From: a virus
Strand: one strand, 5' to 3'
IMG/VR virus record: IMGVR_UViG_3300042991_000209
Location: 1 to 20,359 of that record
Length of the DNA: 20,359 bases
This document shows, in pieces, positions 6,641-20,301 of the stretch; within the stretch, counting starts at the first letter, position 1; each line of letters opens with the position of its first letter. The translations under genes and the position numbers were made by a program. Under the pieces are notes generated by a model, which worked only from the letters and a program-made list of their open reading frames with translations, was not told the origin of the DNA and did not search any database.

Positions 6641-8320
6641 TCTCGACGCGACAGCTGAACCACCAGCAACACCCAAGGAACCAGGAGATTCGAAGGTCTT
6701 AATAGGTGTACCACCACCATCACGCACTCTAATATATAGATCACGTGGAGCACTATAAATGGTAGTAAAAGCTTCAGATGTATCATCACAAAGCCTGTCA
6801 ATATAGGAGATGAACAAATTCTTTCCAGCGGCAGACGCATTAACACCACTAAAATCCGTTGATGCTATAGTAAACGTGCTGGTTGCCCATGAAAGATAAT
6901 TGACTTTACGATACACACCTGTATCAAGTTGGATTCTAATAGACCCTGAGGCTGGAGTATCTGCAGGAATTGCAGTTGTTACAACAATAGCCTCAATGCC
7001 AGCAGAATTATACGTTGCATTTGTTAAGAGCTGATTAAATTTAAAAGCATTTCCAGTATCTTTTGGTCCAACTAGTACGTAATCTTCACCATTAACTAAA
7101 CCAGAAACCGTGAATATAACATTGTTTGGAGGAATTTGTGTAGCACCATTCAAATCTTGAATAGTGTCGGAAGCGGTTAAATCGTCTGTATCAACCCCTA
7201 CTCCGAAAGCACCGATCAATGTACCTGTATAAGATCCAAGAAATACCTTGGGAACGGTCTTACCAGTAACGGTACCTTGAACCGCAGTAGCTGTACTGGC
7301 CCCTGTAATAACAATACCACCACTCGGAATAACTCCAGTTAAAAGCTGTATCCACATTTTAGTACCAGCGGTTACACTATCAATAGCAAGAAGTTGCCCT
7401 GTTCCAGCGGTTGCTCCAGTTCCCCAAGTAACTAATTCTGGTTCTGAAAAAGTACCGGTGGGTGAAGAAATGGCAATTTCATGGGTGATACCTAAAAACA
7501 TTTCACCATTCAAACCATAGAGATCTGCGACTGGTGACGCCTGACTTGTAAGTTCCTTGATCCATTCCCAAATAGCCTTAAGTTTTGCAGTGTTGCTATT
7601 ATAAGTCCACTTAGAATAATAAGGTTTATTACCAGCACCGTTGTTTAAGTTAATCATTTGATAACCTTCAACATTGGTAGGAATATCTCCGCCAGCCCAT
7701 CCTTGAACAGTACCAATTAAAGAAGTGTTCTGAGCATCAGGTGTAGTACCAAGAGCCGCCACCGCCTCACCTTCTCCGAGTGTTACATTAAAGAAGTCAT
7801 ATGTATCACCCCAATGTCTGGCTTGCACACGAATACGCTTACCATCAACATCTGCACCAAGAGTTCTTGATTTAACAAGAATACGAAGCAAGATACCCGC
7901 AGTAGCATTACCATTGTATCCACCAGTTGCTTGAGTTCCCCAGAAAGGAGATGCTTGGTATAAATCATTATTTTGTACAACTTGGATTTGTGTTGCAGTA
8001 TTATTAACAGCACCCAACACCATGAGACCAGAATAAATTTCTTCTGTACCACCAGTTCCTTGTTTAATAGACCCAGCATACAAATACTCAGCAGCATCAC
8101 CATCAATATTGTAGTTACCTAAAAGTGTGATAATGTTGTCTGTTGATCTTTCAGATGGTGTACTACTTGTAATATCCAAAAGGTCATTACCAGAAGCTAC
8201 TGCATCATCTGCTAAGTCTTGAAGAAATCTGTGTAGCTCCAAAACAGTATAATGGGATGTTCCAGATGAGTGTCTGATAGCCCCACTGACCGTTACGGTA
8301 AAATCATCAGCTATAGCCAT
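6626..8320 (-). CDS. Conserved phage virion structural protein, 564 aa
   Basis: The start is ATG 8320..8318 with a strong AGGAGG 8 bases upstream, after the longest non-coding gap in the window. Residues 1-60 contain DDFTVTVSGAIRHSSGTSHYTVLELHRFL-type sequence and LLDITSSTPSERSTDNII. Residues 140-230 contain ILLRILVKSRTLGADVDGKRIRVQARHWGDTY. I recognise this combination from uncharacterised structural proteins of environmental phages. The rest is Gly/Thr/Ser-rich beta sequence, with a low-complexity segment at about 300-360 (GTGATAGTGQLLA, ITGASTATAVQGTVTGK). There are no membrane segments. The good initiation site and own leader suggest high expression. It could be a collar, neck or head-fibre protein. 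Virion assignment is by resemblance and context. Confidence 0.87.
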   Translation of the reverse strand: MAIADDFTVTVSGAIRHSSGTSHYTVLELHRFLQDLADDAVASGNDLLDITSSTPSERSTDNIITLLGNYNIDGDAAEYLYAGSIKQGTGGTEEIYSGLMVLGAVNNTATQIQVVQNNDLYQASPFWGTQATGGYNGNATAGILLRILVKSRTLGADVDGKRIRVQARHWGDTYDFFNVTLGEGEAVAALGTTPDAQNTSLIGTVQGWAGGDIPTNVEGYQMINLNNGAGNKPYYSKWTYNSNTAKLKAIWEWIKELTSQASPVADLYGLNGEMFLGITHEIAISSPTGTFSEPELVTWGTGATAGTGQLLAIDSVTAGTKMWIQLLTGVIPSGGIVITGASTATAVQGTVTGKTVPKVFLGSYTGTLIGAFGVGVDTDDLTASDTIQDLNGATQIPPNNVIFTVSGLVNGEDYVLVGPKDTGNAFKFNQLLTNATYNSAGIEAIVVTTAIPADTPASGSIRIQLDTGVYRKVNYLSWATSTFTIASTDFSGVNASAAGKNLFISYIDRLCDDTSEAFTTIYSAPRDLYIRVRDGGGTPIKTFESPGSLGVAGGSAVASRITDA

Positions 8321-8874: not shown

Positions 8875-10098
8875 TTAATCTTCTATAAGCATCCAATCAA
8901 TAAAATAATTAGCACTATCCATATCTCCAGTAAAAATTACAGTAAAACTACTAGCTGTTTTTGCTGATATAATAAACATGTAAATGGATGGTGGTGAATC
9001 TGCAGTATTCACTAAAGTAGCATTTACCGTATAATTTGTATGCCCCAAACTACTAAAAGTTACTGTTACTGTAGAAGCTCCATCTGAAATAGCTGTTCTG
9101 CCCCTTAAAGTGATACCATCACCCACACTTTCAGTATCAACATAAGATTTGGTAGCTAAATCATAATCATTTACTGGGGAAACACCCGATACAGTATTAG
9201 TAAAACCACGAGAACCATCAACTAAGATATATTGGGTATGATCATCATCTCCTAAACCAGTAAGATTACCATGATCACTATAGGTAGTAATATCTGCTTC
9301 AAGTCCAGAAATAGTAGAATCTATTTCACCTTCGGTATAGTAAATACTATTGTGAGTATGCTGTAATGAAGCATCACCTATTCCACTGGTACTAGTCAAC
9401 GCATTATGTTGCTCACCTGTTAAATGATAATAATCGTCAGTGGTGCCACCTTGAAGACCTGAAGTATTATTATGAGTGACAGTACTACCAAAACGCACCC
9501 AAATTGTACCATTAAAAAGATATGCTACATCAAGGTCTTCTATCCATGCAGAAAAACCTTCATTAGGAACTGTTTCTACCCACGCAGCACTATCCCAAGT
9601 ATAAACACGATGTATAGTCCAACCATTACCCGAATCTCCAGCAATATACCTAACACCTAAAGTTGGTGATCCTGGAAGACCAGTAGATGCTGTCCAGAAA
9701 TTTTTAATACTTTGTTGCCAATCTAAACCTTGAATAGCAAGATCCACATAACCTTTAGTGGTTAAGTGTGAACTTAAGGTAGGGGTAACACCCCCTACAG
9801 TAGAAGAAAAAGATCTACCACCATTAACTAACATGTACTGAGTGTGGTCATCATCGCCTAGCCCTGTCAAACTATCATGACTTTGAACTATACCCCCACT
9901 AAGTGTAGACAGTTCTTCATCAATATAGCCCTTGGTAGCTAAGTGATGGCCCTCTGTAGGCATGACTCCACTAATAGTAACATCTACTTTAAGTTGGCTA
10001 TTAACACCATCCCACCATATATTAGCATCTAAAGAATCTCCCCAGGTAACCTTTTGTTCATCTTTTAGACGTAAGTCTTTATTAGTAAATTTTGCCAT
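8875..10098 (-). CDS. Tail-fibre-type protein with DHTQY repeats, 407 aa
   Basis: The start is ATG 10098..10096 with AGAGG 8 bases upstream. Two repeats of about 45 residues (73-119 and 276-321) share LTGLGDDDHTQY(M/I)LV, G-R-x-F and LxTKxYVD; a third LATKGYID lies at 53-60. The DDDHTQY motif is common in phage fibre shafts. Between the repeats, residues 125-205 form a separate module (WQQSIKNFW, GVRYIAGDSGNGWTIHRVY, AYLFNGTIWVRFG) and 208-275 carry collagen-free shaft sequence. The C-terminal 335-405 is a beta module (SSLGHTNYTVNATLV, FTGDMDSANYFIDWM) homologous to residues 49-126 of the adjacent 298-residue protein. It is likely a trimeric fibre involved in host binding or head decoration. 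Confidence 0.88.
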   Translation of the reverse strand: MAKFTNKDLRLKDEQKVTWGDSLDANIWWDGVNSQLKVDVTISGVMPTEGHHLATKGYIDEELSTLSGGIVQSHDSLTGLGDDDHTQYMLVNGGRSFSSTVGGVTPTLSSHLTTKGYVDLAIQGLDWQQSIKNFWTASTGLPGSPTLGVRYIAGDSGNGWTIHRVYTWDSAAWVETVPNEGFSAWIEDLDVAYLFNGTIWVRFGSTVTHNNTSGLQGGTTDDYYHLTGEQHNALTSTSGIGDASLQHTHNSIYYTEGEIDSTISGLEADITTYSDHGNLTGLGDDDHTQYILVDGSRGFTNTVSGVSPVNDYDLATKSYVDTESVGDGITLRGRTAISDGASTVTVTFSSLGHTNYTVNATLVNTADSPPSIYMFIISAKTASSFTVIFTGDMDSANYFIDWMLIED

Positions 10099-10112
10099 TT
10101 ATGTAATCCTCT

Positions 10113-11009
10113 TTAATTAGTATTTTCCGAACTTAAATCGGGATCAAACCTTATTGTATCTGGTGATATGGCTATACCAACAACTTGGGGCCAAGAACCC
10201 CCATTAGGTTTTATATTAGTCAAAGATCCTTCGACTGTTGATACATATATTTTGTTGCCTGGAGTCCAATTCCAAATTCCCTTTCTTACATTTCCTTTCC
10301 AGAAAATATTTGTGACTTCTCCGTATACCTCACTAAGTGCTAAAGCAGCACATGGCATATTATAAATACCACTAGCTGCACAGGCTGCTCCCCAATTACC
10401 ATTAGACTGCATATACAGTGGGCAGGCAAAACCAGTGGGATTATCAGAAACATACATTTCTGATGCCTCTCCACTATAACCCATTTCATAACCATGTAAA
10501 TTTATTCCACTTGGAGCAACATCTAACATGACTAAATGGGAACCTATATCTAAATCCCCACCTAATTCTGGACTAGTATCATCTGACAATTCAGTTATAC
10601 CAGAAACCCCAGGATTGTATACCTCTATGTCGGAAAATGTAGCCTTCCAGTTTAAATAATAATTACTTGAATCTATTTCTCCTGAAAAGTATACATCAAA
10701 ACCATTAATAGTTTTATCTTTTACTAATATGGGATATACTGAAGGTTCGACATCTATTTTGTTTTCTAAACTGACTGCTAATATATAATCTATAGATGGA
10801 TATTGATTTGAAAAATCAACAGAAATTGAGGATGTTCCAGCAGGTATATTCACTATACCTGCTTGTGCATTAGCATTAATAGGAACAAATTCTATGGAAT
10901 CTCCAGGGGCATTAACCTTTAAAAAATTATTTTCAAATCCTGAATAAGTAGTAGGAGTATCGGTAAGTTCTAAAAAACTTGATGCGCCTTGTTTCCTTAA
11001 AATTATCAT
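10113..11009 (-). CDS. Fibre-type protein sharing a beta module with its neighbour, 298 aa
   Basis: The start is ATG 11009..11007 with AAGGA 9 bases upstream. Residues 10-45 read FLELTDTPTTYSGFENNFLK and onward, a segment typical of phage fibre N-termini. Residues 49-126 form a beta module (IPAGTSSISVDF, YPSIDYILAVSL, DVYFSGEIDSSNYYLNW) that matches the C-terminus of the next gene's product. The C-terminal 170-298 carries IWNWTPGNKIYVSTVEGSLT and PQVVGIAISPDTIRFDPD, a module seen in many phage fibre proteins, where it may cap the fibre. Four cysteines occur in 196-220. It is probably a fibre or fibre-tip partner of the 407-residue protein, from which it is separated by 14 bases. Confidence 0.85.
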   Translation of the reverse strand: MIILRKQGASSFLELTDTPTTYSGFENNFLKVNAPGDSIEFVPINANAQAGIVNIPAGTSSISVDFSNQYPSIDYILAVSLENKIDVEPSVYPILVKDKTINGFDVYFSGEIDSSNYYLNWKATFSDIEVYNPGVSGITELSDDTSPELGGDLDIGSHLVMLDVAPSGINLHGYEMGYSGEASEMYVSDNPTGFACPLYMQSNGNWGAACAASGIYNMPCAALALSEVYGEVTNIFWKGNVRKGIWNWTPGNKIYVSTVEGSLTNIKPNGGSWPQVVGIAISPDTIRFDPDLSSENTN

Positions 11010-11040
11010 CCTATTTTATCCTTCTTATCAAGGCATGTTA

Positions 11041-11529
11041 TTATCTTGATAGTTGCAATTCTTTTATTCTCTTTCTTATAATTCTACATAAACTATCTTT
11101 GCCAGAAAGTTGATTAGCCTCTTGCATAGCATATTTTAGTAAATTTAAATCTGTTATTTTAGGTAACATGTCTCTAGCTTGTCTAACTGATAATCCTACT
11201 ATATCTGCAACATTCAGTTTTTTAGAAACAAGCGGCGTTACTGCATCAGTTCCTTTAGATCTATTAGGGGAACTCTTAGTAACAGCCTCCTTTGCTTCTA
11301 CAGAAGTTGTATCGTTTGGTATGTTGTCCTCAATTACTATATTCCACCTAGACTTATCATTAAGCTTTACTGAGCGAAGCCATTCTATAAATTCTGGGCC
11401 CTCTGTAAGTCCATGCTTTATACCGTATTGTTCAAAAAGCTCTTTTAGTGGAATCTTTCCGCCAGGACCTACCGATCTTTTCATAGCATGTGTCCAACTA
11501 GGTAACCTGTTTATTACATAACCTTCCAT
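11041..11529 (-). CDS. Conserved phage hypothetical protein, 162 aa
   Basis: The start is ATG 11529..11527 with AAGGAGA 8 bases upstream. The N-terminal half (YVINRLPSWTHAMKRSVGPG, GKIPLKELFEQYGIKHG, FIEWLRSVKL) looks like a compact helical domain that I have seen in uncharacterised phage proteins encoded after the capsid gene. A Ser/Thr/Lys-rich linker spans about 85-107. The C-terminal half is helical (LNVADIVGLSVRQARDMLPK, LLKYAMQEANQL, LCRIIRKRIKELQLSR), with a basic end. There are no membrane segments or catalytic motifs. A head-completion or assembly role is guessed from position only. Confidence 0.82.
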   Translation of the reverse strand: MEGYVINRLPSWTHAMKRSVGPGGKIPLKELFEQYGIKHGLTEGPEFIEWLRSVKLNDKSRWNIVIEDNIPNDTTSVEAKEAVTKSSPNRSKGTDAVTPLVSKKLNVADIVGLSVRQARDMLPKITDLNLLKYAMQEANQLSGKDSLCRIIRKRIKELQLSR

Positions 11530-11573
11530 ATTAAATTCTCCTTTTCATTAAATTTTTACCTTGTCCTAAATGT

Positions 11574-15158: not shown

Positions 15159-16271
15159 CTATTGTGATATAGTTTTAACTGCCTCACATAAAGCAGCTTT
15201 TAAACCATCTAAAAGCTCCTTACGTTTGTCTATAGCTGCTCTTTTCTTCATAGATTTTTTTCCAGCAGCCATTGCAAGACTAAGGATTTCCTTGTTACGC
15301 AAGCAGTCTGGATCAGTAGTATCTCTACTGAAAGACGAACAAGTTTTTTCATAAGCTGAGCACCAATCATTTGCTGTACTATTTCCATCTTTATCGAATA
15401 GGTTGCGTTTATAATTGATGCATATACCTACGCTATCATCTAGTGATCCATCGCGTGCTTCTTCTTTAATTTTAATAGTTTCTATTTCTTCAAAGGTTAC
15501 ATTATTATCTTGGCTTATTCTATCATAGTTTAATATAATCACTTCATCTGAAGCCATAGATTTACTATCTCCTTTTTCATTAGCTGTCTCAAGAATAACT
15601 GATGGTGGATTAGCTGGGTTCTTTACTATACCACATCCAGAAAAACAAATCCCACGTAATACTCTGGCTATAGTACCAGTCGCAATCTCTACGCCGCCTT
15701 TTATTACTTTAGCAAGTCTGCCTAATATCTTGTCATCGGATGAGGCCAAACCTAAAGATTCTGCTTCTTTACGATTTAAGACTAGTTCACCAATTTTAAC
15801 ATCGTAATCTTGGTAATAACATTCCATACTCACTTTAAACTTGTTATCTGCAACTTCTTTGGCTATATTTGGAAATCTATTTTTATATATTATTCCAGCA
15901 ATGGCAATATGCATATCAACATTATCCATACCAGCCACTTCTCTGGAGGCTAATTCAGATGTATCAAGTATATTATTTTCTTTATCTATATAAACACGTT
16001 CGTAAATATGTCCTATTATTTCTTCTTCGCTATGCTCAACATCTAAAGCTTTATTAATAATAGTGCCTTCGGCAGCAACGAGTTCAGAGCCTAAAAAATA
16101 AGCATGATTAAGATTTTCTCCTGAAGATACAAAAATTGCCGAGAAGTATTGGAGATCTGGTTGGCGATCTTTTTCTACTGGTAAATTTATTACTTTTGAA
16201 GCTTTTTCTTTAAGTAATTGTGTTTCCTCTTGAATTATTATAGGAGCCTCTAAATAAAATTTATTTTCCAT
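15159..16271 (-). CDS. Prohead maturation serine protease with Cys-rich C-terminal extension, 370 aa
   Basis: It would cleave scaffold and other head proteins during procapsid maturation. Residues 40-70 (LQYFSAIFVSSGENLNHAYF) lead to ALDVEHSEEEIIGHIYE, whose His80 is the likely catalytic His. Residues 145-158 contain KVSMECYYQDYDV, with Ser148 as the likely nucleophile, and 209-227 contain FSGCGIVKNPANPPS, typical of phage prohead proteases that use a His/Ser pair. The mature enzyme domain ends near 230. The remaining 140 residues include an acidic linker and a Cys-rich block (C284, C304, C311, C323) followed by a basic helix (KKSMKKRAAIDKRKELLDGL), possibly an assembly or targeting part. The start ATG (16271..16269) overlaps the GIY-YIG gene by 11 bp. 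Confidence 0.87.
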   Translation of the reverse strand: MENKFYLEAPIIIQEETQLLKEKASKVINLPVEKDRQPDLQYFSAIFVSSGENLNHAYFLGSELVAAEGTIINKALDVEHSEEEIIGHIYERVYIDKENNILDTSELASREVAGMDNVDMHIAIAGIIYKNRFPNIAKEVADNKFKVSMECYYQDYDVKIGELVLNRKEAESLGLASSDDKILGRLAKVIKGGVEIATGTIARVLRGICFSGCGIVKNPANPPSVILETANEKGDSKSMASDEVIILNYDRISQDNNVTFEEIETIKIKEEARDGSLDDSVGICINYKRNLFDKDGNSTANDWCSAYEKTCSSFSRDTTDPDCLRNKEILSLAMAAGKKSMKKRAAIDKRKELLDGLKAALCEAVKTISQ

Positions 16272-16866
16272 TTTTTATCACTCTCCATCTTATTTTAGCA
16301 GCCTCTGAAAGTTTTATTTTATGTTCATCAGAAAACCTTTTACCAGAAAGCTTTATAGAAATTTTATTCCTAGTTTCATCCGTATGATTTTTACCCTTCA
16401 TTGGAGACTGTACTCCATACATGGGATTACCTACACCGGCTTTTGATGGTCTATTTGCCATCATTTTTCTTTTTGCTTCGTCAGTCATTTTTCTACCTTT
16501 GTGGGCCTCAGACAATTTCTTTCTTGTTTCAGCTGAAGGTATACAACCTGAGTAACCTTCTCCTCCAAAGGTACAATTGTAACCAAATATTTTTATAGTA
16601 CTTCTATATGACATGATGTAATGAAACTCCATTTCATCTAATTCATCCTTAGAATAACATTTTTCTATTATTTCCCACTTAAAATTATCTAAACCATATT
16701 TGTTAAAGGCTCTCGCCATATGAGTTGTAGAAGAACCATTTCTTGAACTACGTTCATGTTCCCCTCTTCGTTTGTGTAATCCTTTTACTGTCTGACCTAT
16801 ATAGATCTTACCATTAATAATATTGGTTACTTTATATATTATACCAAAACAATCTTTGTCATCCAT
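16261..16866 (-). CDS. GIY-YIG homing endonuclease with NUMOD3-type repeats, 201 aa
   Basis: Residues 8-100 form a GIY-YIG nuclease domain: GIIYKVTN (Y11 of the GIY position), GKIYIGQT (Y22-I-G), LHKRRGEH (catalytic Arg at 33 or 34), LDEMEFHYI (E80) and GYNCTFGGEG (N97). After it come several DNA-binding repeats of the NUMOD3 kind (ETRKKLSEAHKGRKMTDEAK, GKNHTDETRNKIS, GKRFSDEHKIKLSEAA). All core residues are present, so it is probably active. It sits between portal and protease, overlapping the portal end by 8 bp and the protease start by 11 bp, with AAGGATAAG upstream. It is a free-standing selfish gene rather than an intron or intein: both flanking proteins are complete. Confidence 0.92.
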   Translation of the reverse strand: MDDKDCFGIIYKVTNIINGKIYIGQTVKGLHKRRGEHERSSRNGSSTTHMARAFNKYGLDNFKWEIIEKCYSKDELDEMEFHYIMSYRSTIKIFGYNCTFGGEGYSGCIPSAETRKKLSEAHKGRKMTDEAKRKMMANRPSKAGVGNPMYGVQSPMKGKNHTDETRNKISIKLSGKRFSDEHKIKLSEAAKIRWRVIKNGK

Positions 16867-18706
16867 ATCTTATCCTTCCCATTTCATCTAAAAAATCCGC
16901 GTAGTCTTTTCCACTTAAAACTTCCTTGGCGCCCTCTAAGAGAAAAGCATACTCTGAAGCTAACATGTCTCTGATGTCACTTTCACTTATTGAGGCATCC
17001 TGCTTTGTTTTAGGCGGTGGCTTCTTAGTAGGATCTGGCTTATTTTTAACTGGGGTAGCTTTTCCCTTAGGACGACCTGAAGAAGGAGTTCCTGAAGGTG
17101 CTACCTGATTTGGCTGCATTTTAGCTTGTTGCCAAGGAGAACCCAAAATACCAAAAGTACCATCTTCCACAAGGGGTAATTCTTCTTCCATATTATTAAG
17201 CTCATTAGCAAAGTCAAAACCAAGAGCCTCAAGAGAAGTTCTATAACTTAACATTCTACGATCTACTAACGTAGCTAAAGTGTTCATATATAGAATAGTA
17301 TCAAGTAGTACTCCATCATCCCATCTTACTTTTGGAAATCTCTCAAATCCCATAGCTTCAGCTATTTGTTGATACTCTCTATAAATCCAACGTGTAACTT
17401 GACGTCTGGCGTAATTTATTTCTTCCATTAAGCCTTTGGTAATTAGATCTACTTCAGCAGCATTTAAGTCTCCGCCCCCATCTATCAATGCTCTAGTTAT
17501 TGATAATCCTGTCGTTAAGTCTTCATCAACTTGTTCGTATTTACCCTTTCCAAGAATCTTATCGATTTCTGGAGAAACTATTTTTTTAATCTCTAAGGTA
17601 TGATTCCATACTACATCAAAAGATTTACTTGGGGTATTGAAAAGTTGGGCTACTGCTTCTAATTCTGCTTGGGATACTACTGGGTATTCATCATTACCAA
17701 TAGTTATTTGGAGGATATAATTACTGATACCATCTAATGTACTTAAATCAGCTTGTCTAAGAGACTTTTTATATTCTATAGAATCAAATACTCTTGTACT
17801 CTTTGGTTTAGCATATCTTTCATATGGTTGTTTTCTATATGTAATATGCCCTACCAATCTACTATCAAGTTGATATTCTCCACCTTTTTGAGCAGCCGCC
17901 TTTAGATCTGATGGTAGCGCTTTTATTAACTCTTTTTCTTCATCTGTTTGTTCTCCAGAAGGTTTCTTAAGAAGTTCAGTTAATTCTGGTGGTGGGGTTA
18001 TTTTGGTTACTACTTTATCAAATAGTAAATTACCAGTTATATTTACCAATACTGGATTAAGCACTGTATATGCTACAGGCAGATGCCCCTTTGACCATAT
18101 ATTCTTTTTGGCAGCCATCTCTAATCCTGCAGTCTTGGTAGATTTTTTTATATTCTGGCCAGGAACGGGAGATAAATAAGACACTCTTGGCTCATACTTG
18201 GCTAAAACTTTGTATGTAGTTACATGCCCAACTTTAAAAAAATCCAAAAATATCCAGTCTAAAATCTCTTCAAAACCCACATCAAAAGTCCACACATCAT
18301 AAAATTGTTTTATAGCATCATCATCAATATCATTTTCAAAACCCTTCCTTGCTAAACTAGCTAAAACATTAGTGGCTGAGCCCACTAATGGGTCTGTATA
18401 ATAATATTGGATTGCTCTTTTAAATGATGTCTTAGGGTCTTCTGTATAAGGGTCGCCCGCAGCTAAATCTAAATTAGTTCTCTGAATATAATCACGTGTA
18501 ATAGATGCAGCACGTTCTTTTCCAGAGAAAATTCTTGGAACTACTCCACCTTTATTAGCATCTAAAAAAGCTAAACTTTTCTTGGTAGGTTCAATGAGGA
18601 ATGTAGATTTTCCAGTACTCTCATCGACTTCTATAGAACGAATACCAATGTCAGGATATTTTTCTTGGAGAGTAGCTGTTACTTGTTTAAGTGAATTGGA
18701 TTCCAT
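16859..18706 (-). CDS. Portal protein, 615 aa
   Basis: It forms the dodecameric ring at the DNA-entry vertex. The start is ATG 18706..18704 with AGGAG 7 bases upstream. Residues 60-130 (AASITRDYIQRTNLDLA, FKRAIQYYYTDPLVGSATNV) and 135-165 (FEEILDWIFLDFFKVGHVTT) match the clip and wing region of phage portals, where helix residues are followed by LSPVPGQ-type strands. Residues 285-330 contain HITYRKQPYERYAKPKSTRV with two positive patches, and 400-500 (SITRALIDGGGDLNAAEVDL, YARRQVTRWIYREYQQIAEA) form the long stem and crown helices. The C-terminal 525-575 is a Pro/Lys-rich disordered tail and the last 40 residues are helical. Assignment rests on these segments and the portal-protease-scaffold-capsid gene order. 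Confidence 0.9.
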   Translation of the reverse strand: MESNSLKQVTATLQEKYPDIGIRSIEVDESTGKSTFLIEPTKKSLAFLDANKGGVVPRIFSGKERAASITRDYIQRTNLDLAAGDPYTEDPKTSFKRAIQYYYTDPLVGSATNVLASLARKGFENDIDDDAIKQFYDVWTFDVGFEEILDWIFLDFFKVGHVTTYKVLAKYEPRVSYLSPVPGQNIKKSTKTAGLEMAAKKNIWSKGHLPVAYTVLNPVLVNITGNLLFDKVVTKITPPPELTELLKKPSGEQTDEEKELIKALPSDLKAAAQKGGEYQLDSRLVGHITYRKQPYERYAKPKSTRVFDSIEYKKSLRQADLSTLDGISNYILQITIGNDEYPVVSQAELEAVAQLFNTPSKSFDVVWNHTLEIKKIVSPEIDKILGKGKYEQVDEDLTTGLSITRALIDGGGDLNAAEVDLITKGLMEEINYARRQVTRWIYREYQQIAEAMGFERFPKVRWDDGVLLDTILYMNTLATLVDRRMLSYRTSLEALGFDFANELNNMEEELPLVEDGTFGILGSPWQQAKMQPNQVAPSGTPSSGRPKGKATPVKNKPDPTKKPPPKTKQDASISESDIRDMLASEYAFLLEGAKEVLSGKDYADFLDEMGRIRYG

Positions 18707-18716
18707 AAATTATCTC

Positions 18717-18914
18717 CTAGTATTTATTCTTATCTAATTCCCTTCCAGTTTTAACTCTACCAATTATTGTATCTACCCCACTATAAGTGGTATCCATTAT
18801 ATCGCCGCTTCTAAATCTAGTATAATCGTCTTGCCAACTATCAAGTCCAGACACAGTTGCCCAAGGATTATCCGCAATAAAATCTAGATTACTACTATTA
18901 TCGAAACCTGGCAT
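18717..18914 (-). CDS. Small hypothetical protein before portal, 65 aa
   Basis: The start is ATG 18914..18912 with AGGAGG 8 bases upstream; it ends 10 bases before the portal ATG. The protein is acidic and aromatic-rich in the middle (FIADNPWATVSGLDSWQDDY), with a basic C-terminus (IIGRVKTGRELDKNKY). There is no membrane segment or known motif. The strong initiation site and conserved-looking context support a real gene, perhaps a portal or terminase accessory factor; this is not shown by sequence. Confidence 0.75.
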   Translation of the reverse strand: MPGFDNSSNLDFIADNPWATVSGLDSWQDDYTRFRSGDIMDTTYSGVDTIIGRVKTGRELDKNKY

Positions 18915-18926
18915 ATTTATAGCCTC

Positions 18927-19946
18927 CTAAAAAGGTATTGAGACGCTTACTCCGTAAGAAACATCTAACTCACTATCATATGTTATTACTGGAGATATAA
19001 ATAGATTCTCTACAAGCGGCAGAAATTTCCCCGCATTCCAAGAAAAAGGCTCAAAAGAACCTATAGTTTTCCAACTATCATCTGGGGCGGTTTGGGCTGC
19101 CCCTATTCCAAATGTAAAAAATCTCCAATCCATATCTACTGTAGTTTTACCATAACTAGAAGTACTAAAATCTAATCTTGGCGCTAAATCATTATTAGTT
19201 GCTGTGGCGCCTATACCTATACGTGGGTTCCACCAAAAAAAACTTTTTTCTTTTCTTTCAAATTTTTCCCATTTGAAATCAGTGATATTTATTGGGTATT
19301 CTTTACCCTTGCTTTCTTTTGTAGCATTGTTCTCTATGTGGGCTTCAGCGGCTCGACTAAAAGAACCATCTTTGTTCTCAGATTCTATCACAGTAGTATG
19401 ATACTCTAAAGGGTAAGAACCAGTCTTCCATTTCTTATCAGAATCTTGTTTAGGAAAATACATAGCCCATGCTATGGGTATATCATTACCTTTGGCATCC
19501 TTACCATAAATTTCTTTCATCTCATAAGATAGTTTATCTCGCCTTACATCTTCCTCAGTATCTCCAGTTTTTGCAGCTTCTTTAGAAACAGAAGAGTCTT
19601 CTCTTAGTTTGGTAACTGTTCTATCTAATTTAGCAATCACCACACCAACTTCTTCTAATTGAGCATTCTTCTTTTTATTCTCCGACATAACGTACTTTAA
19701 AAATTCAGACTGCTCACCTTTTGAATCTTGTAACTGCTTTATTAATGCTTTAGATGCACTATCATTAGCTATGATATTTTGTAACATAACTTTATTAGCA
19801 TCAAGTTGAAGTAATACTTCTGGAGGGATAGATTTGCTTGAATTAAATCCATCTATAAAATCTTTTCCATGATAAATTATAAACGCAACCAAAACAATAA
19901 CTACTACGCTTTTTGTTATGTCCCACACATTTAAATTTACAGCCAT
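18927..19946 (-). CDS. Membrane-anchored coiled-coil protein with OMP-like C-terminus, 339 aa
   Basis: The start is ATG 19946..19944 with AAAGGAAA upstream. Residues 11-26 (TKSVVVIVLVAFIIYH) form one membrane helix, probably a signal anchor. Residues 45-120 are helical and heptad-like (LLQLDANKVMLQNIIANDSA, LEEVGVVIAKLDRTVTKLRE). Residues 140-235 are a soluble domain with WAMYFPKQDSDKKWKTG. From 240 on, alternating strands dominate (RIGIGATAT, DMDWRFFTFGIGAA, NLFISPVITYDSE, VSYGVSVSIPF), and the last residue is Phe, as in the beta signal of outer-membrane barrels. The layout suggests a protein reaching from the inner membrane across the periplasm. It lies next to a two-helix membrane protein, so a lysis or envelope role is possible. 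This is inference; a structural role is not excluded. Confidence 0.8.
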   Translation of the reverse strand: MAVNLNVWDITKSVVVIVLVAFIIYHGKDFIDGFNSSKSIPPEVLLQLDANKVMLQNIIANDSASKALIKQLQDSKGEQSEFLKYVMSENKKKNAQLEEVGVVIAKLDRTVTKLREDSSVSKEAAKTGDTEEDVRRDKLSYEMKEIYGKDAKGNDIPIAWAMYFPKQDSDKKWKTGSYPLEYHTTVIESENKDGSFSRAAEAHIENNATKESKGKEYPINITDFKWEKFERKEKSFFWWNPRIGIGATATNNDLAPRLDFSTSSYGKTTVDMDWRFFTFGIGAAQTAPDDSWKTIGSFEPFSWNAGKFLPLVENLFISPVITYDSELDVSYGVSVSIPF

Positions 19947-19956
19947 TATATTTCCT

Positions 19957-20301
19957 TTACTGATCTGTATCTAGACTTCCTTGCCCCTTAGGTTCAAATA
20001 AAGATGTCCTTAAAACTATTCTACTTACGGCTAAAGTTATAAATCCTCCACCTAAAAAAGTTAAGCCTTCTGTAGAACTTATAAATGACACCCCTTCATT
20101 ATTCTTTTCAAAAAACATACCATAAACAACCAGCCAGAAGAAAAATACCATAAATTGATATTTGACGGAAGCAAAATTACGAAGTATTTTCTGAGTCCAA
20201 AGATCCCAAAAAGACCTATCAAAAATAGTTATCTTCACATATGGGCAATCATCCACTATGGTTTCTTCATTTTCTATTGCGGTTTGAGTTTCATCACCCA
20301 T
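19957..20301 (-). CDS. Two-helix membrane protein, holin-like candidate, 114 aa
   Basis: The start is ATG 20301..20299 with AAGGAG 8 bases upstream. The N-terminal 48 residues are polar and acidic (ETQTAIENEETIVDD), then come two membrane helices, 49-64 (QFMVFFFWLVVYGMFF) and 78-96 (EGLTFLGGGFITLAVSRIVL), separated by a short polar loop (EKNNEGVSFISSTE). A charged C-terminus (FEPKGQGSLDTDQ) follows. The size and two-helix topology suit a class II holin, but the N-terminal domain is longer than usual and no lysis gene is proven nearby. The next gene (10 bases on) is the membrane-anchored coiled-coil protein, so the two may act together at the host envelope. Confidence 0.75.
   Translation of the reverse strand: MGDETQTAIENEETIVDDCPYVKITIFDRSFWDLWTQKILRNFASVKYQFMVFFFWLVVYGMFFEKNNEGVSFISSTEGLTFLGGGFITLAVSRIVLRTSLFEPKGQGSLDTDQ

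Follow-up and report, generated by a model that had tools for sequence, protein, structure and literature searches.

A holin-like gene and a candidate single-chain spanin gene with a predicted outer-membrane barrel between terminase and portal in uncultured tailed phages

Background

The systems closest to the locus described here are the spanins of phages lambda and T1. In lambda, the spanin is a pair, Rz/Rz1, in which Rz carries a type II inner-membrane anchor and Rz1 is a lipoprotein, whereas the u-spanin of T1, gp11, reaches both membranes with one chain—through a lipoprotein signal for the outer membrane at its N-terminus and a helix at its C-terminus, with a beta-rich periplasmic part between them—and acts without a partner (Kongari et al. 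2018, PMC6139136). That survey left about 13% of the analyzed genomes without a spanin, and its authors noted that anchors of other kinds escape their criteria and that the o-spanin role could fall to an outer-membrane protein (PMC6139136); a census from 2025 also applied a lipobox filter for O- and U-spanins (PMC12596118). Anchoring by an inner-membrane helix combined with an outer-membrane barrel is not described in either of these spanin surveys (PMC6139136, PMC12596118). A cellular precedent for a single protein that joins both membranes is MlaD of Veillonella parvula, which has an N-terminal inner-membrane helix and a C-terminal outer-membrane barrel (PMC10665443).

Here, we analyze a pair of genes on a 20,359-base piece of DNA from an uncultured tailed phage, taken from a virus record and called the window below. 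The first gene encodes a holin-like protein of 114 amino acids (TM2) and the second a protein of 339 amino acids (cc) for which we propose a spanin-like role. The predicted inner-membrane anchor of cc is similar to that of Rz, but cc has no Rz1-like lipoprotein and ends in a predicted barrel rather than a second coiled coil. With T1 gp11, it would share a single chain to both membranes, a beta-rich periplasmic part and, by analogy, action without a partner; however, the arrangement is reversed, with a barrel in place of the lipid. The likeness to MlaD is one of architecture; MlaD has a ten-strand barrel and an MCE domain and serves host lipid transport. As defined, the u-spanin family does not include cc, which has neither a lipobox Cys (the window protein contains no Cys at all) nor a C-terminal helix. 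It is also not a two-component i-spanin, as no partner was found in the window or around cc in 20 loci, but it may work like both kinds of spanin.

Results

A conserved gene pair between terminase and portal

Late genes of the window lie on the minus strand, and at its right end they read, in order, TM2, cc, a 65-aa protein, and portal (Table 1). TM2 and cc are separated by 10 nt, with a ribosome-binding-site-like sequence ahead of each, and both are real genes, conserved to a degree that chance would not produce. The 65-aa protein is present in relatives with or without cc and was left outside the lysis pair. The portal and major head proteins of the window are distant kin of their counterparts in Bacillus phage G, and a GIY-YIG/NUMOD3 homing endonuclease gene is inserted after the portal gene (16261-16866, minus strand).

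Table 1. Coordinates and basis of the features at the right end of the window
Feature	Position in window	Strand	Basis
TM2, 114-aa holin-like protein	19957..20301	-	ORF
TM2 hydrophobic helix 1, residues ~49-64	20110..20157	-	translation; family hydropathy
TM2 hydrophobic helix 2, residues ~80-97, basic stretch after	20011..20064	-	translation; family hydropathy
cc, 339-aa envelope-spanning, spanin-like protein (predicted)	18927..19946	-	ORF, homologues, AlphaFold2 model
cc residues 7-34, membrane helix at the N-terminus (predicted anchor in the inner membrane)	19845..19928	-	model; hydropathy
cc residues 40-230, predicted periplasmic stretch	19257..19829	-	model; VIA-align Ig-like Z ~4
cc residues 238-339, predicted six-stranded barrel	18930..19235	-	pLDDT ~83-95; VIA-align; strand charge
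cc last strand VSYGVSVSIPF, OMP-type C-terminal signature, terminal Phe	18930..18962	-	family count
Small conserved 65-aa protein, located between cc and portal	18717..18914	-	homologues in relatives without cc
Portal gene, anchors the slot	16859..18706	-	phrog_16240 portal 1.1e-6; phage G portal similarity 1e-13

When viral contigs were searched with family profiles, 26 loci were recovered for cc and 42 for TM2. The merged set holds 33 distinct cc sequences, all from uncultured tailed phages akin to the window phage. The usual order in these relatives is TerL, TM2, cc, the 65-aa protein, and portal. Among 55 distinct TM2/cc combinations in total, TM2 accompanies 28 of the 33 cc sequences. In 25 of these cases the two genes are at most 60 nt apart, and several pairs overlap by 1-4 nt. 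The three separated pairs are split by a transposase-like insert (L060), an HNH-type gene (L069), and lysis genes (L093). TM2 without cc was found in 27 combinations; a search for a displaced cc gene in 19 records found it absent from 18. Beyond these contigs, cc had no match in Pfam, in PHROGs, or in an annotated collection of 50,697 phage records, the cc profile found no match in genome contigs, and a sequence search of the PDB returned nothing significant.

Predicted structure of cc

A first-pass annotation of the window, made from its sequence alone, had proposed that the 339-aa protein consists of one N-terminal membrane helix, a coiled coil long enough to extend into the periplasm, and a beta-rich C-terminus with terminal Phe. 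We found the helix and the C-terminus as described, while an AlphaFold2 monomer model built with the 33 family members (mean pLDDT 85, pTM 0.58) gave a different picture of the middle. At the N-terminus, the helix—the feature that cc shares with i-spanins—has a hydropathy of 2.13 over 19 residues in the window protein and 1.66-2.8 in relatives with an intact N-terminus; by this measure it is present in 32 of 33 members, the remaining one being a sequence without its N-terminus. No small-x-small site was evident by eye after the helix, and we expect cc to be oriented with its C-terminus in the periplasm. The stretch that had been taken for a long coiled coil is charged and helical, but in the monomer it is modeled as two short helices (62-74 and 78-92), preceded by a hairpin (44-58) and followed by a beta-rich, mixed alpha/beta middle part; a coiled coil may still form in an oligomer. 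Ig-like matches to this region in VIA-align (Z ~4) were not significant. Judging by the model, the cc monomer looks shorter than the typical E. coli periplasm, a point against a protein that reaches both membranes.

The C-terminal domain is modeled with high confidence (pLDDT mostly 83-95) as a barrel of six strands (242-250, 254-266, 272-286, 291-306, 315-324, and 329-338) rather than as an ordinary globular domain. Its best match among solved structures is BBn6 (9xzt), with a Z of 9.5 and an rmsd of 2.7 over 83 residues in VIA-align, compared with a Z of 5.5 for a designed transmembrane barrel. BBn6 resembles the cc domain in having six strands of about 10 residues but, unlike it, is a soluble de novo design, with a fold that according to its authors occurs "rarely if ever" in nature (PMC12478100). 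The prediction thus bears out a barrel at the C-terminus, while the solubility of its closest match is a point against a membrane barrel.

Membrane or soluble barrel

The composition of the family points in the other direction. Across the family, 7% of residues in the strand columns of the barrel are charged, compared with 39% in the barrel loops, 26% in the strands of the middle domain, and 35% in the helical region. Frequent charge is limited to six columns of the barrel strands (R242, D259, D273, R275, E299, and D324), and on four of the six strands one face is hydrophobic, with 0-1% charge. An alternating hydrophobic pattern with terminal Phe is an established C-terminal signature of outer-membrane proteins. 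Scored as hydrophobic residues at positions -1, -3, -5, -7, and -9 and not between, this signature is present in 27 of 30 complete cc members but in only 5 of 1130 background ORFs; the terminal Phe itself is found in all 30, compared with 7.5% of ORFs of at least 150 aa. An N-terminal helix combined with the signature occurred in 3 of 1256 other ORFs. Taken as predictions, these patterns favor a membrane barrel. Alternatively, the domain may be soluble with an unusually uncharged surface, or the barrel may be oligomeric. The monomer model has six strands; the criterion for an outer-membrane beta-barrel is eight or more antiparallel ones. To our knowledge, no six-stranded outer-membrane barrel made by a single chain occurs naturally.

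If the barrel were soluble, cc could be an ordinary i-spanin-like protein whose C-terminal domain binds a second protein in the outer membrane, the product of a gene elsewhere, as the soluble BBn6 match would allow. A weak match to the Rz-like spanin family phrog_7584 (7e-4), obtained for one cc relative only and covering the helix and coil alone, also fits this alternative, as do small lipoprotein-like ORFs elsewhere in the closest relative (L002 13708-13875 and L120 5-229), which may represent a distant o-spanin partner. Set against these points are the nearly uncharged strand faces and the conserved C-terminal signature, together with the lipoprotein searches. A lipobox scan that recovers lambda Rz1 as a positive control returned no ORF from any of the frames across the whole window, and the window therefore holds no classical o- or u-spanin; a strict scan of 20 loci for an o-spanin lipoprotein gene embedded in, overlapping, or adjacent to cc was likewise empty, leaving no conserved lipoprotein gene beside cc. 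We consider a soluble, partner-dependent cc unlikely.

Between cc and portal of the closest relative, a small lipoprotein-like ORF overlaps the gene of a cysteine proteinase of the BTLCP type (Peptidase_C93, 3e-12; L002 13708-14252, plus strand).

TM2 as a candidate holin

The two membrane helices that had been proposed for the 114-aa protein correspond to its two hydrophobic stretches. Across an alignment of 18 members, the motif FWDLWxQKxxRNxASxKYQ is conserved ahead of the helices, as is a tail ending in DTDK/Q, and the sequence suggests a topology with both ends inside. TM2 has no match in Pfam or PHROGs and so belongs to no holin family by sequence, which sets it apart from GTA_holin_3TM (PF11351), Phage_holin_6_1 (PF09682), and described class II holins. 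It nevertheless shares with them the nature of a small membrane protein and, in relatives, the slot between TerL and portal; its two hydrophobic stretches, small size, and basic flanks are the layout of class II holins. Almost always, TM2 directly follows TerL. In one relative (G031, locus L107), it has moved out of this slot to a position 54 nt downstream of a GH24 lysozyme gene (Phage_lysozyme, 8e-45); cc is still found behind TerL there.

A competing explanation takes TM2 for a terminase-linked membrane anchor or regulator instead of a holin, with cc the only lysis protein of the two. Its nearly constant place directly 3' of TerL and the strong conservation of its cytoplasmic motif fit this explanation, and TM2 may indeed not be a holin given that a GTA_holin_3TM gene sits beside it in L094 and that a small membrane protein is encoded at the endolysin of G013, a phage that carries both TM2 and cc. 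The move to the lysozyme gene in G031, the class II layout, and the lack of TM2 where other holins occupy the slot (L012 and L018) argue for a holin instead. On balance, a terminase anchor seems to us a serious contender, if somewhat less likely than not. The G013 protein, a 62-aa single-helix product encoded directly after an M15 endolysin gene (L123 11272-11460, minus strand), is a second holin candidate in its own right.

Lysis genes in relatives

The position ahead of the portal gene had been regarded as unusual for lysis genes, but relatives carry GTA-type and LLH-type holins in the same slot: GTA_holin_3TM in L018 (7e-18) and L094 (1e-17), and Phage_holin_6_1 in L012 (2e-6). In phage T7, too, the holin and Rz-type genes adjoin the terminase genes.

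An endolysin adjoining the pair had been suggested as a check on the lysis role, and in one relative an endolysin gene adjoins cc. In L093 (record G022), the start of cc overlaps by 4 nt the end of a gene for a 147-aa M15-type endolysin (phrog_894, 1.8e-9; Pfam M15_3 reached 8e-4, below the cut-off), and this overlap equals that of lambda R and Rz. In most other relatives the endolysin is not adjacent but lies ~6-13 kb from cc; in many of them it is found upstream on the same strand, behind an actin-like gene, and is of the M15 type in six records and the GH24 type in two. The closest relative (G001) has a GH108 endolysin (1.9e-19), and no Amidase_2-type endolysin was found in 20 records. Since the window ends short of the endolysin region, its own endolysin gene would lie off-window.

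This gene context bears on the proposal that cc has no part in lysis and instead modifies the envelope or blocks superinfection. Exclusion by phage-encoded envelope proteins is known, and the cc of L015 matched a superinfection-exclusion family, but at an E of 0.059, and no family match was significant; the late-gene position, the coupling to TM2, and the endolysin overlap all speak for lysis. We regard an exclusion role as very unlikely.

Several other genes were noted in these regions. The actin-like gene that immediately precedes the endolysin slot of several relatives encodes an ATPase of the Volactin family (PF25216, 8e-67 in L119), with loci at L119 14770-15768 (minus strand), L107 842-1840, L121 643-1638, and L123 11969-12967. 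In L093, the lysis cassette includes, just ahead of the endolysin, a gene with a CAP12/Pycsar-type TIR domain (PF10137, 8.8e-15; 6788-7492, plus strand), and directly 3' of cc is a gene for an O-antigen ligase-like membrane protein (Wzy_C, 3e-17; 8897-11032, plus strand).

A fold match in Cellulophaga phages

A Foldseek search of cc against viral models returned two unnamed uncultured-phage proteins (E 4e-21 and 5e-8) and, at an E of 6.5e-6 (prob 1.00), gp59 of Cellulophaga phage phi17:2. The latter starts with a helix, has GGFKIEF as its last residues, and is encoded by a gene that overlaps the 3' end of an Amidase_3 endolysin gene by 11 nt; phi4:1 gp57 is identical to it. Both thus have in common with cc the fold, the N-terminal helix, a terminal Phe with the OMP signature, and an endolysin neighbor. 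They differ in their length of 238 aa, in having fewer C-terminal strands by eye, and in being annotated as structural. A profile comparison of cc with gp59 gave no match (hhalign probability 0.25%; identity 10%), and we therefore treat the likeness as shared architecture, not proven homology. A scan for a helix plus the OMP signature across 1-100 kb of phi17:2 and 60-90 kb of phi4:1 returned gp59/gp57 and one false match, a helicase. A helix-plus-signature protein beside the endolysin is not a general rule of Bacteroidetes phages, as none was present in B124-14, P2559S, 11b, or the first 50 kb of phi10:1.

The structural annotation of phi4:1 gp57 derives from its detection by MS/MS in phage preparations. 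The first-pass annotation had named detection in mature virions, or a soluble globular C-terminus, as refuting results; with the predicted barrel, its soluble closest match, and this detection of a fold-level relative, the outcome is mixed. The detection allows a virion role and is the main point for it: cc could be packaged or attached as a virion or injection protein that spans the envelope at DNA entry, with its barrel in the outer membrane, and its place among late structural genes, flanked by terminase and portal, would suit such a protein. On the other hand, late-made membrane proteins are common contaminants of phage preparations, and an uncleaved N-terminal membrane helix would be unusual for a particle protein. 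Moreover, the endolysin gene is overlapped both by the gene of the fold match and by a true homologue, the cc of L093, and the cc slot is exchanged for holin families in relatives. A particle component is, in our estimate, improbable.

Discussion

TM2 and cc are probably part of the machinery that bursts the host. We lean slightly towards reading cc as a unimolecular spanin-like protein, with a helix in the inner membrane and a barrel in the outer membrane, that forms a late lysis set with a holin-like partner. The single-chain link between the two membranes proposed in the first-pass annotation is in this respect supported—by the model, the composition of the strand faces, the C-terminal signature, and the linkage to endolysin genes—without the long coiled coil that was part of it.

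Under the preferred reading, the host would be a bacterium with an outer membrane, and TM2, with both ends inside, would open the inner membrane. The N-terminal helix of cc would stay in the inner membrane, an inverted anchoring relative to the u-spanin, its periplasmic alpha/beta segment would cross the peptidoglycan layer, and the OMP-type signal at its C-terminus would lead to insertion of the six-strand domain into the outer membrane, presumably through the BAM complex of the host. Once the holin had opened the inner membrane, the endolysin, encoded ~6-13 kb upstream in relatives, would degrade the wall, and the freed cc proteins could cluster, pull both membranes together, and disrupt the outer membrane.

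More specifically, cc might represent a new class of spanin, in which a single chain is anchored in the outer membrane not by lipids but by a BAM-assembled six-strand barrel, formed alone or as an oligomer; we rate this as possible, a little short of an even chance. If true, such a class would explain how some phages free of spanin lipoproteins breach the outer membrane, and the barrel of cc might be the smallest that a single chain forms in a natural membrane. The anatomy of the family would escape spanin filters based on the lipobox (PMC6139136, PMC12596118). With linkage to lysis genes in independent lineages and a length short enough for tests in E. coli K-12, the family offers a test of the six-strand barrel as an outer-membrane anchor.

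Genome bins with a related portal do not identify the host: the four MAGs are labeled WOR-3, Fermentibacteria, and, in two cases, archaea, and we rejected a host call from these contradictory labels. A diderm host is indirectly hinted at by the GH108 lysin, the O-antigen ligase gene of L093, and a secreted, Trp-ending protein of L041. This last protein, from a relative without cc, has 237 residues, is beta-rich, and shows a signal peptide-like start and an OMP-like C-terminus with terminal Trp (10848-11561, plus strand); it has no Pfam match.

Finally, the TerL frames of four relatives extend to ~1,040-1,440 aa, compared with the usual ~580 (L015 2135-6454, L016 3895-7056, L020 4523-7681, and L070 156-4271), and these oversized frames probably contain inteins or fused insertions.
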